The notes under the pieces are model-generated. The model was given only the letters and a program-made list of their open reading frames with translations, had not been told where the DNA came from and ran no database searches. Positions 45,715 to 53,262 of a stretch of DNA of 64,000 bases are shown here, in pieces (within the stretch, counting starts at the first letter, position 1; each line of letters starts with the position of its first letter). Both the position numbers and the translations under genes were made by a program. This DNA comes from Ferruginibacter sp. (GTDB taxonomy: Bacteria > Bacteroidota > Bacteroidia > Chitinophagales > Chitinophagaceae), in NCBI GenBank assembly GCA_017983695.1, contig JAGOAX010000003.1, positions 248,001 to 312,000 on the forward strand, given 5' to 3'.

Positions 45715-45740
45715 CCGGGTTCGAATCCCGTACGTGGTAC
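45715..45740 (+). other. tRNA 3'-end fragment (possible attachment-site scar)
   Basis: GGGTTCGAATCCCG (45717-45730) forms a T arm with the invariant TTCGAAT loop, followed by ACGTGGTA as an acceptor-like 3' strand. No 5' part, D arm or anticodon arm precedes it and the outermost T-stem pair is a mismatch, so this is a remnant. It sits just after the ahcY terminator, at the edge of the AT-rich island with the ATPase-methyltransferase gene. tRNA 3' ends are common integration sites, so a scar of element insertion is likely (inference). Confidence 0.6.
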
Positions 45741-45820: not shown

Positions 45821-45842
45821 ACCTGCCTGCCGGCAGGCAGGT
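45821..45842. repeat. Perfect 22-bp GC-rich palindrome
   Basis: A perfect palindrome centred on CTGCCGGCAG. It is GC-rich against its AT-rich surroundings and is of a kind dispersed in Bacteroidota spacers. Weaker relatives (CCTGCcttaaGCAGG, CTGCCgacaGGCAG) occur near 49250 and 50470. Confidence 0.7.
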
Positions 45843-45908
45843 TGGCGTCGCACTCTTCAGCAACATAACTTTATTGAACTTTTTTTTGTGAAGTAGATTT
45901 AAGCGAAC

Positions 45909-45928
45909 GGCTCGTGAAGACACGAGCC
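45909..45928 (-). terminator. Hairpin after the ATPase-methyltransferase gene
   Basis: Perfect 8-bp arms GGCTCGTG and CACGAGCC with a 4-nt loop, 9 bp beyond the stop of the minus-strand gene. There is no strong T run on the minus strand, so it may act as an mRNA 3'-end stabiliser or a weak terminator. Confidence 0.5.
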
Positions 45929-45937
45929 GAGGCGACG

Positions 45938-47875
45938 TTATTTAAACTTAATCAAATTTAGACTTGCATTAGCATACTGATTTAACCAAAAACTCAATTT
46001 CATACCATTTTTATAATTACTTTGTAATTTACGATACTCTCCAATTTTAGTTAACGAAAATTCCATAAGATTACTAATAGCAATTTCAATAGATTTAGGT
46101 GTGCAATTTATTAAATGAGATTTTGGAATTAAATGACCTTTTAATCGACCATCATTTCTAGCATCATCAACTATATAGTCTTTAGTTTCATTCTCGAAAC
46201 CAAATAGTTTTTTAAACTGACTTTCATCAAAAACCATAAATCCATTTTTGTAAGCTTTTTCCCCGATAGGAATCTCTTGATCTTCAACAATCAACAAGTA
46301 TCCGTTTAATTTTAAATTTTTTGAAATAATACTTTGAGTTCCCAATATTTCAAGCCATTGATTGGGCTCAATCTCGTGCAAGACGTTGCACATAATAACT
46401 ATGTCAAATGACATTGGATTTAATTTGTGAAACTCAATATCTTTTGTAAAATATCTCTTTTTTTTCGGAAGTTCATCAGGATAAACTTTTGAAATTATAT
46501 CCAGACATTTTGAAGATACTTCTTTATTTTCTTGTTCCAAGTCGTAAGCAAAATAATCTATTCTCTTATCTAAGTTACTAGGATATTTTTCTTTCAAAAA
46601 AGATAGTAACCTTCCTTTTCCAGCTCCAAAATCTAAAATTCTAATTTTTTCTTCATTTTCATAAAGTTTAGCTATTATTTTATTTATTTGATTTGTTTGA
46701 GGGTCATTCTGACCTGTTTCTACAATTCTTGGAGGCAAAAGACATTCTGTAGCAAATTTAGAAGCGGCAAAAACATTTGTTGAAGTTACAAATTCAAATA
46801 TTTTTTCTTTCTCTTTTTCTCCTAATAATGCCGTTACAACTTTTTCAGGCTCTCTACCAACATACTTTATTTTAGAATCTTCCATGTGCCACAAATAACT
46901 AGTATCAAAGTGGGCAATTAAAGGAAGTGAATGAGTTGCAATCCATATTTGTCCATTCGTATTTAAGCTTATAATTTTTTCTAAGACATCAATTAAAATT
47001 TTGGGATGCAAGTGATTTTCTGGTTCATCTAGCAACAATACAGCATTTTCGATATTTACATCGTGAAATGTTAGAGCTAAACTTAATTGCAGCAAAATCT
47101 TCTGACCTTCTGATAAATTGCATTCGTTTACTTCTTTTGAAAAAAGGGTAGCTTCACCATGTACATTTCTTTTTAGTTCAACTCCTAAAAAATCATAAAT
47201 CAATGAATTTAACTTAGAGTAAACATTCTGCGCTTTCGCTAGATATTCTTTTTCATTTTCTTCTAAAAAATTTTCGCTTTGATTATTGTAAACAATATTT
47301 TGTAATGATTGAATAATCCCAGTGGTACTTTCCGAAAAATCATCCATTTTCTGGTTTCCAACTTCATTTAAAAGATTTTTTAACTGCTTATTTGATAATT
47401 CATTTGAATCTTTTAAATCTATTTTTTTTGGAATAAACTTATAAATATCTCCTTTAGGTTTCGGTTCATCATATTCTATAAATAAAGCTAAACCTAAATT
47501 TCTTTCGCTTTCAGGAATTGATATTTGTAGTTCATTTATTTTTAGATTAGTGAATTGATAATCGTCAGGAGTCATCATCTTCTTTAAATCTTTAACCTCC
47601 TTTCCCATTTCAGTATCATGCTCTAATTTCTTTTTTCGTAGATAATTTAAATAAGTTTGATCAGTTTTTAAATTGTTTTTTCTTCTATTGATTTCTGAAG
47701 AATTGCTATCGTCAAGTTCACTGCGAAAATTTAGGATTGAATTCAAAACTCTGGTTTTTCCTGAGCCATTTTTACCAGCAATTATCACAACCCTATCCAA
47801 ATTATTCATTTCTAAATGTGTCAAATTAATAGACTGAAGAACATTTTTCGGAAGTGAAAGTTTTTTTATTTGCAT
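45938..47875 (-). CDS. ABC/OLD-like ATPase fused to a SAM-dependent methyltransferase
   Basis: A 645-residue two-domain protein. Residues 1-340 form an SMC/ABC-type AAA domain: Walker A GKNGSGKT (34-41), a helical insertion with charged coiled-coil (65-110), signature LSEGQ (254-258), Walker B VLLLDEPE (279-286) and H-loop ATHS (H315). In OLD-type nucleases a Toprim domain would follow; instead residues 405-575 form a class I methyltransferase with motif I ILDFGAGKGRLL (413-424), an acidic motif II region (YFAYDLEQEN) and NVLHEIEPNQW. Such ATPase-effector fusions are typical of phage-defence genes, but this combination is unfamiliar to me. It is AT-rich, stands alone and is flanked by a tRNA fragment, repeats and a mobile-element relic. 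The methylation target is unknown. Confidence 0.85.
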   Translation of the reverse strand: MQIKKLSLPKNVLQSINLTHLEMNNLDRVVIIAGKNGSGKTRVLNSILNFRSELDDSNSSEINRRKNNLKTDQTYLNYLRKKKLEHDTEMGKEVKDLKKMMTPDDYQFTNLKINELQISIPESERNLGLALFIEYDEPKPKGDIYKFIPKKIDLKDSNELSNKQLKNLLNEVGNQKMDDFSESTTGIIQSLQNIVYNNQSENFLEENEKEYLAKAQNVYSKLNSLIYDFLGVELKRNVHGEATLFSKEVNECNLSEGQKILLQLSLALTFHDVNIENAVLLLDEPENHLHPKILIDVLEKIISLNTNGQIWIATHSLPLIAHFDTSYLWHMEDSKIKYVGREPEKVVTALLGEKEKEKIFEFVTSTNVFAASKFATECLLPPRIVETGQNDPQTNQINKIIAKLYENEEKIRILDFGAGKGRLLSFLKEKYPSNLDKRIDYFAYDLEQENKEVSSKCLDIISKVYPDELPKKKRYFTKDIEFHKLNPMSFDIVIMCNVLHEIEPNQWLEILGTQSIISKNLKLNGYLLIVEDQEIPIGEKAYKNGFMVFDESQFKKLFGFENETKDYIVDDARNDGRLKGHLIPKSHLINCTPKSIEIAISNLMEFSLTKIGEYRKLQSNYKNGMKLSFWLNQYANASLNLIKFK

Positions 47876-48020
47876 GTATGTTAACTAGATATGAGTTAGT
47901 GGTAGTTGCAATATACAAAAAATTAGTACGGCCTATTAGTTCTAACTTTTTTAAATTCTGGAAAAAGTGGCTTTAAAACAACACTTATCACTTACCAACT
48001 GGCTTAAGTGTTCGCATTTT

Positions 48021-52815: not shown

Positions 52816-53262
52816 TTATTTCGCAATACTCAATCCTTCGTGTGCCAATTCCATAGTTTCTACTGCTGGATTTTTATTATCCGTTACAGTCATCTTAACA
52901 GGATATGCATTCGTCAATTCCCAACTCATAGCTTCGTTATTAGTTTCATCCAGCAAGCTTATCGTTACTTTTTTTCTATCAAAAGTATTCATCACTACAA
53001 GATTGTACATATCCCAAAGTGCCTTATCATTTTTAAAAATGCCTTTCTTAAGTGTTACGTTGCCGTATTTTTTAATGCCGGGCATTTTTACGGTAGAAAA
53101 TGCTTTACTGTTTCCTGCACGATACTCAATGATCTGGGTCTCGGCATTTAACCCGGTTACTTCCTGGAATAAAATTTCTGTATCGCCGATTTTTACCCTG
53201 AAAACGAATTTAACTAAAGGCCATGTTGACTTCGATTGTTGGTTACCTGTTTCGTCTGCCAT
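52816..53262 (-). CDS. Phage-tail-tube-like protein (T4 gp19/Afp1-Pvc1 family)
   Basis: A 148-residue protein with the tail-tube core: FVFRVKIGDTEILFQEVTGL, IEYRAGNSKAFSTVKMPGIK, YGNVTLKKGIF. This is the family of T4 gp19-like tube proteins, including the inner tube of contractile injection systems (Afp1/Pvc1). No sheath, baseplate, spike or AAA ATPase gene lies nearby, so it is an orphan. Possible explanations are a relic of an injection system, a tube subunit acting with a distant cluster, or a recruited scaffold. The sequence is intact and ordinary in composition. Confidence 0.75.
   Translation of the reverse strand: MADETGNQQSKSTWPLVKFVFRVKIGDTEILFQEVTGLNAETQIIEYRAGNSKAFSTVKMPGIKKYGNVTLKKGIFKNDKALWDMYNLVVMNTFDRKKVTISLLDETNNEAMSWELTNAYPVKMTVTDNKNPAVETMELAHEGLSIAK

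Follow-up and report, generated by a model that had tools for sequence, protein, structure and literature searches.

A PtuA/AriA-like ATPase fused to a class I methyltransferase in Ferruginibacter sp., a possible single-gene anti-phage defence protein

Introduction

What is the function of a protein that joins an ABC-type ATPase, of a kind known from phage defence, to a methyltransferase? The question is raised by one gene in a stretch of 64,000 nucleotides from Ferruginibacter sp. (assembly GCA_017983695.1, contig JAGOAX010000003.1, positions 248,001 to 312,000). This stretch is called the window, and coordinates refer to it unless another locus is named. The OLD-type ATPase modules that were found described are paired with nucleases of the Toprim, HNH, PD-(D/E)XK or PIN type (PMC12839542). 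The original prediction placed a methyltransferase where a nuclease effector is usual, and the fusion of an ATPase with a class I methyltransferase as candidate effector is confirmed here.

The architecture and the family are near certain to be real. A defence role is likely, and the specific reading, a single gene for anti-phage defence whose PtuA/AriA-like ATPase controls a methyltransferase effector, is given about an even chance. Observed directly are two active sites that are intact and conserved together, a sporadic occurrence, and phage-like or defence-like surroundings in some genomes. The gene had been proposed to act alone in either defence or self-modification; the first of these agrees with a single, sporadic fusion gene in such surroundings, while the second, as far as DNA is concerned, is not supported. 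No paper on an ATPase-methyltransferase fusion was found in literature searches; a description in broad surveys of ABC ATPases is possible.

Gene and domain architecture

The open reading frame (ORF) at 45938-47875 on the minus strand starts with ATG and encodes 645 amino acids. The N-terminal half has all the ATPase motifs that were predicted for it (Walker A, LSEGQ, Walker B and H-loop), aligned with those of the relatives, and matches AAA_21 of Pfam at residues 30-320 (E 2.7e-15, above the curated cut-off). The C-terminal half is, also as predicted, a class I methyltransferase. Its motif I, ILDFGAGKGRLL, aligns with the relatives and Methyltransf_23 matches at residues 397-531 (E 7.1e-8, above the curated cut-off). 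The lack of an S-adenosylmethionine (SAM) pocket, which would have spoken against the prediction, was not seen; the SAM motif is intact and conserved and the methyltransferase model is confident. The source genome (4.48 Mb, 36 contigs) contains one full copy of the gene, and a second match comprises 56 residues of the ATPase only.

Of the 7998 candidates that the protein search scored, 1037 were homologues at E<=1e-3; query coverage is 96-100% in 118 of the 120 homologues listed. The fusion is therefore no chance product. In the scan of genome contigs 120 relatives were found among 290 candidate stretches and 80 loci were kept; 47 of these (L003-L049) match beyond the common ATPase core, some being cut by contig ends, and the others match the core only. 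The 120 search hits (window protein included) and the 47 locus rows were combined in an alignment of 167 rows, which includes some proteins in duplicate and, as row L047, a wrong frame of 81 amino acids. With L047 left aside, identity to the window protein is 24-52%. The features of the gene and their conservation in the alignment are:

45938-47875, minus strand: ATPase-methyltransferase fusion gene, 645 amino acids, intact ATPase half and intact methyltransferase half
46820-47875, minus strand: ATPase half, residues 1-352, PtuA/AriA-like ABC ATPase
47753-47776, minus strand: Walker A GKNGSGKT, residues 34-41; K40 in 161/161 covering rows
47102-47116, minus strand: ABC signature LSEGQ, residues 254-258; S255 and G257 in 166/166 covering rows
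47018-47038, minus strand: Walker B LLLDEPE, residues 280-286; E284 in 166/166 rows
46931-46933, minus strand: H-loop histidine 315; 166/166 rows
46100-46819, minus strand: class I SAM-dependent methyltransferase domain, residues about 353-592
46604-46639, minus strand: methyltransferase motif I ILDFGAGKGRLL, residues 413-424, SAM pocket; G417 and G419 in 166/166, G421 in 164/166 rows
46370-46393, minus strand: methyltransferase motif IV MCNVLHEI, residues 495-502; V498 and E501 in 166/166, H500 in 165/166 rows
46238-46288, minus strand: family hallmark VEDxxxPxGEKAxxxGF, residues 530-546; E531 in 166, D532 in 165, G538 in 167 and E539 in 166 of 167 rows, the wrong frame of L047 counted among them
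45941-46099, minus strand: C-terminal helical hairpin, residues 593-645; G624 and N636 at least 98% conserved

Beside S255, G257, E284 and H315, H290 of the ATPase half is also invariant (166/166 rows), as is R422 of the methyltransferase half (166/166), and N497 is found in 164/166 rows. The 51 positions with at least 98% conservation are distributed over both halves and the C-terminal hairpin. The variable part is a helical insert inside the ATPase half at about residues 51-135, with a mean conservation of 0.33 compared with 0.54-0.74 elsewhere. The C-terminal hairpin falls outside the model range spanned by the listed structural alignments, and together with the VEDxxxPxGE stretch it looks specific to the ATPase-methyltransferase family.

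The conserved SAM pocket would also suit a C-terminal half that is a sensor of SAM or another ligand and controls the ATPase, its catalytic activity being a prediction. The pocket is no more invariant than H500, E501, E531, D532 and E539, a pattern that would be better suited to catalysis. Catalysis is favoured over sensing for this reason, and the sensor is considered improbable.

Comparison of the ATPase half with known systems

By sequence and predicted fold the ATPase half is closest to PtuA (Septu, retrons Ec78 and Ec83) and AriA (PARIS). PtuA gave the best PADLOC model, the best matches among solved structures and the best predicted fold, and the PADLOC score of AriA is nearly equal (9.4e-19). 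The earlier label of an ABC/OLD-type ATPase is refined, PtuA and AriA having the nearest scores. The NCBIfam PtuA model gave 42.4 bits against a cut-off of 500; judged by these sequence scores the half appears similar to PtuA but not orthologous.

The likeness to PtuA of Septu, the type I-A retrons (Ec78/Eco7) and retron Ec83 is limited to the ATPase half. Septu has a separate HNH nuclease, PtuB (PMC11555353), whereas the window protein has a fused methyltransferase; no PtuB-like HNH ORF was seen by eye beside the window gene and no neighbour family was found in more than 4 of the 47 loci. Expression of PtuAB of retron-Eco7 leads to degradation of tRNA-Tyr and abortive infection (PMC11555353). 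In PARIS, where AriA is almost as near to the window ATPase as PtuA, the effector is the Toprim nuclease AriB, while the window protein has a methyltransferase and no Toprim. AriB is activated by AriA and cleaves host tRNAs (PMC12839542), and single-gene AriAB fusions exist (PMC10568477). In members of the OLD family such as GajA, as in the window protein, an ABC ATPase and a C-terminal effector form a single chain (PMC10568477); in the window protein the class I methyltransferase takes the place of their C-terminal Toprim. The ptuXYZ locus resembles the window protein in joining a PtuA-like ATPase to non-standard effectors, but it consists of three genes with DUF262 and BECR/PIN domains, and the word methyltransferase is absent from the text of that paper (PMC11980606).

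Because neither the partner of Septu nor the Toprim of OLD and PARIS was found, the window protein is not assigned to any of these systems. By analogy it is likely to work as they do, and the ATPase-methyltransferase is best read as a new variation on the PtuA/OLD theme of an ATPase with an effector.

Methyltransferase half and proposed mechanism

Both Pfam and the predicted fold identify the C-terminal half as a methyltransferase, of the Rossmann-like class I fold with a glycine-rich motif I. The fold is near METTL6, Hen1, TrmK and small-molecule methyltransferases. Fold and SAM motif are shared with solved class I small-molecule and RNA methyltransferases (PsoF, CurJ, AprA MT2, METTL6, TrmK and Hen1); unlike in the window protein, no such ATPase is part of their descriptions. 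The top Foldseek row for this half was TrmK, with TM-scores of only 0.38-0.47 and a root-mean-square deviation near 11; it was kept as a lead and not as an assignment. The His-Glu dyad of C-methyltransferases in polyketide synthases was dropped as a model, the published AmxMT1 dyad being H304-E308, with a spacing unlike that of H500 and E531.

A DPPY-type motif IV is the mark of adenine and N4-cytosine DNA methyltransferases. In the window protein motif IV reads NVLHE, without the DPPY motif of DNA-adenine enzymes, and the domain is no less like small-molecule and RNA methyltransferases than like any others. The self-modification that had been suggested is therefore unsupported for DNA.

In the proposed mechanism the PtuA/AriA-like ATPase would sense infection and would then switch on the fused methyltransferase. 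This would methylate a target other than DNA, perhaps an essential small molecule or an RNA (for instance tRNA), and phage growth would stop. Gated methylation is plausible as the attack step. The RNA target is a guess that fits, by analogy, the tRNA-attacking relatives and the likeness to METTL6, TrmK and Hen1. More tentative is the proposal of a whole class of immunity, in which a PtuA-like ATPase would gate methylation of tRNA, another RNA or a key metabolite and halt synthesis in both phage and host, as a single protein carried on tRNA-targeting cassettes and phages. If the mechanism is right, the ATPase module would seem able to control enzymes of very different kinds, a methyltransferase among them, and a phage would be stopped in an unusual manner, by methylation as the attack. 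The proposal is quick to test, since it concerns one gene with numerous homologues and well-defined point mutants.

Distribution of the gene

The gene is sporadic. Among 39 genomes of relatives (own included) it was found at E<=1e-30 only in the source genome, that is, in one of 24 genomes of the genus and in none of 15 others of the order. In the phylum, with three candidates scored per genome shown, 2 of 392 genomes have it at E<=1e-60, the source genome included. The 47 loci span Bacteroidota, Pseudomonadota, Myxococcota, Planctomycetota, Bacillota, Campylobacterota, Fibrobacterota, Verrucomicrobiota and others.

A tree of 46 rows has 10 changes of phylum label, where the minimum possible is 7 and shuffled labels average 20.3; the tree thus tracks the phyla partly, yet is mixed. 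The window row is placed next to a set from Campylobacterota, Fibrobacterota and Pseudomonadota (support 90, not starred). Paralogues or mis-binned contigs may be present among the rows. A 1.45-Mb contig of the bdelloid rotifer Rotaria sordida is listed with a relative of 483 amino acids (P0138), to be explained by gene transfer or contamination.

Gene neighbourhoods of the relatives

The 486 neighbouring ORFs at the 47 loci include no constant partner, since the most widespread family (by eye an XRE-type regulator) occurs in only 4 loci. A conserved housekeeping context, named beforehand as the result that would speak against defence, is absent from the 47 loci. PADLOC at 1e-20 was applied to 210 neighbours of at least 150 amino acids within 3.5 kb, in batches of 106 and 104 that matched 18 and 190 models, and to 190 control proteins (109 and 81), which matched 1 and 3; this strong contrast is overstated because one GajA matches dozens of models. 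For the controls, 28 of the 45 genomes were sampled with a single 10-kb stretch each; most of the stretches lay on contig 1 or on contigs that the HsdR search had already brought up.

Twenty neighbours chosen by eye were scanned singly with PADLOC at 1e-10. L034 has GajA, GajB and an HsdS fragment (Gabija and type I restriction-modification, RM), L032 has HsdS, HsdR and PDC-S49, L033 has ThsB with no ThsA seen, and L048 has a type IIG RM enzyme. Known systems (Gabija, type I RM, ThsB, type IIG RM) are thus represented by genes beside at least 4 of the 47 loci. The weaker or unspecific matches are a PD-T4-6-like kinase (L008), PDC-S01 ATPases (L010, L038, L048), SoFic (L036), a DNA methyltransferase (L039) and an ATPase matching Ppl and mad3 (L033). 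Ten neighbours, two of them also in the PADLOC set of 20, were scanned with Pfam, which found among others nSTAND3 (L026), SLFN_AlbA_2 (L018) and an integrase (L012). At L019:4225-6061, directly upstream of the relative, an RNA ligase and an AAA_33 domain protein are encoded, possibly an RNA-repair pair.

The HsdS-like genes of L032 and L034 and the type IIG enzyme of L048 would also suit an unusual RM-like protein, with a methyltransferase that marks the cell's own DNA and a second activity directed against phage DNA. This is very improbable given that motif IV is NVLHE and not DPPY, that Pfam shows no nuclease domain in the protein and that no nuclease was seen by eye beside the window gene.

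Several results weigh against defence, or against the mechanism proposed for it. Some of the single matches (kinase, Fic, AAA_14 ATPases, DNA methyltransferase) are not specific to defence and 5 of the 20 neighbours had no PADLOC match. HSDR_N gave 81 matches in the 45 genomes, of which one (L032) was placed beside the gene by coordinates and the others were not individually placed; about 0.2 would be expected for a span of 12 kb, and an enrichment of HsdR by itself is not clear. SIR2 neighbours of L006 and L049, called by eye, failed their test. Many loci lie among ordinary genes, by eye for example UvrA or ATP synthase. On the question whether homologues sit in defence islands, the known-system genes at a few loci and the strong but inflated PADLOC contrast stand beside the unclear HsdR result. 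Plasmid and phage records contained no full relative for the two queries tried: the window protein had no match, and for the homologue P0086 the matches were to two phage records and one plasmid, in every case limited to 25% of the query within the ATPase part. No group among the N-, O-, C- and tRNA-methyltransferases is clearly nearest to the methyltransferase, so that its target is a guess.

A search with the C-terminal half gave 90 hits, 58 of which also have the ATPase residues. The starts of the other 32 are scattered beyond residue 343, and 17 of these hits include an almost complete methyltransferase. Truncated genes and contig ends may account for them, but stand-alone forms may also exist, and the claim that this subfamily is found only joined to the ATPase was dropped. 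The odds of the defence reading are left as before, as it does not rest on this point.

The ordinary surroundings of several loci, the RNA ligase and the AAA_33 domain protein beside the L019 relative and the fold near METTL6, Hen1, TrmK and small-molecule methyltransferases would suit a different explanation, a modification enzyme without a defence role, that is, an ATP-driven RNA or metabolite methyltransferase of benefit in some niche. It is rather unlikely, since the gene is sporadic and without a conserved partner and its ATPase is nearest to defence ATPases.

The locus in Ferruginibacter

The window gene is AT-rich, as predicted, with a content of guanine and cytosine (GC) of 0.284 in both 1-kb steps of 46001-48000, compared with 0.34-0.41 in 58 of the 62 other steps. 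It is also solitary, between an SAHH gene on the left and an orphan ORF of 87 amino acids and a lipoprotein-like ORF on the right (names by eye). Three features of the flanks are:

45716-45740, plus strand: likely attachment-site scar, identical to the last 25 nt of tRNA-Glu(TTC)
45908-45929, plus strand: perfect 9-bp hairpin CGGCTCGTG-AAGA-CACGAGCCG, just past the stop codon
48177-48440, plus strand: orphan ORF, 87 amino acids, near the right edge of the foreign stretch

The 25-nt copy, about 200 bp from the gene, is likely an integration scar. The surrounding 28-nt pattern has three matches in the genome at up to 3 mismatches, each containing the 25-mer. The two matches outside the window are 5 kb apart on contig C10 of the same genome (L152:1151-6299, where L152 is C10:10501-18000); one is the intact tRNA-Glu(TTC) gene, the other a copy of 55 bp from its 3' part. 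The stretch between them has 29% GC against 40-42% outside and encodes a metallophosphoesterase, an 897-aa protein without a Pfam match and a 147-aa protein; no integrase was found among its ORFs of 90 amino acids or more, and it looks like a non-autonomous cargo cassette. With an AT-rich cassette at tRNA-Glu and an AT-rich gene near the same 25-mer, both may have arrived by one kind of element.

The gene had been placed in an island flanked by integration scars. The left scar was found, but no matching right-hand copy, the repeat search of the flanks giving only short chance-like pairs. In the stretches of relatives taken for an empty-site test, counterparts of the lipoprotein on the right occur, but no SAHH gene was found in their vicinity, and the insertion site could therefore not be compared with an empty site. 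The orphan ORF is present in one of 30 genomes of the genus, the source genome, and has no Pfam or NCBIfam match above cut-off and no PADLOC match.

ARAGORN found 6 tRNAs in 50 loci. The 3' ends of tRNA-Arg in L015 and tRNA-Met in L022 face the 3' end of the gene at a distance of about 110-130 bp. A tRNA hot spot near the relatives was rejected, as a T-arm scan gave 3 against 2.6 expected. The hairpin is a possible terminator; as a mobile-element repeat it was discarded, being unique in the genome at up to 2 mismatches, and in 83 loci only copies of the window's own site were found. Rfam gave nothing at gathering score in the window. A perfect palindrome, CCTGCCTGCCGGCAGGCAGG, is located at 45823-45842 between the tRNA scar and the gene.

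Phage regions

Viral contigs contributed 15 matching loci, 3 of them with full relatives. L085 is identical to L003 and L086 to L025. L086 encodes a Zot protein (PF05707, 1.6e-68), so the region of the gene resembles a filamentous phage. L087 (950-9830) and the Stenotrophomonas locus L039 (1798-11770) have three successive genes in common, with 72, 33 and 60% identity, which by eye are tail genes. The ATPase-methyltransferase, 57% identical between the two, is found just past these genes in both; in L039 a DNA methylase gene lies in between.

The shared phage module that precedes the gene in L039 and L087, the Zot region of L025/L086 and the tRNA scar beside the window gene would be accounted for if the gene were cargo of mobile elements, a superinfection-exclusion or anti-defence gene of phages left in host genomes. 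Such an origin as the whole explanation is unlikely: full relatives are limited to 3 of the 15 viral-contig loci, two of these are identical to bacterial contigs already listed, and no phage genes were seen by eye around many other relatives. Phage-borne defence is common, and the cargo explanation therefore overlaps with the defence reading. The window also contains a T4-like tail tube gene (52816-53262, minus strand; PF06841, 5.1e-37), possibly part of a contractile injection system.
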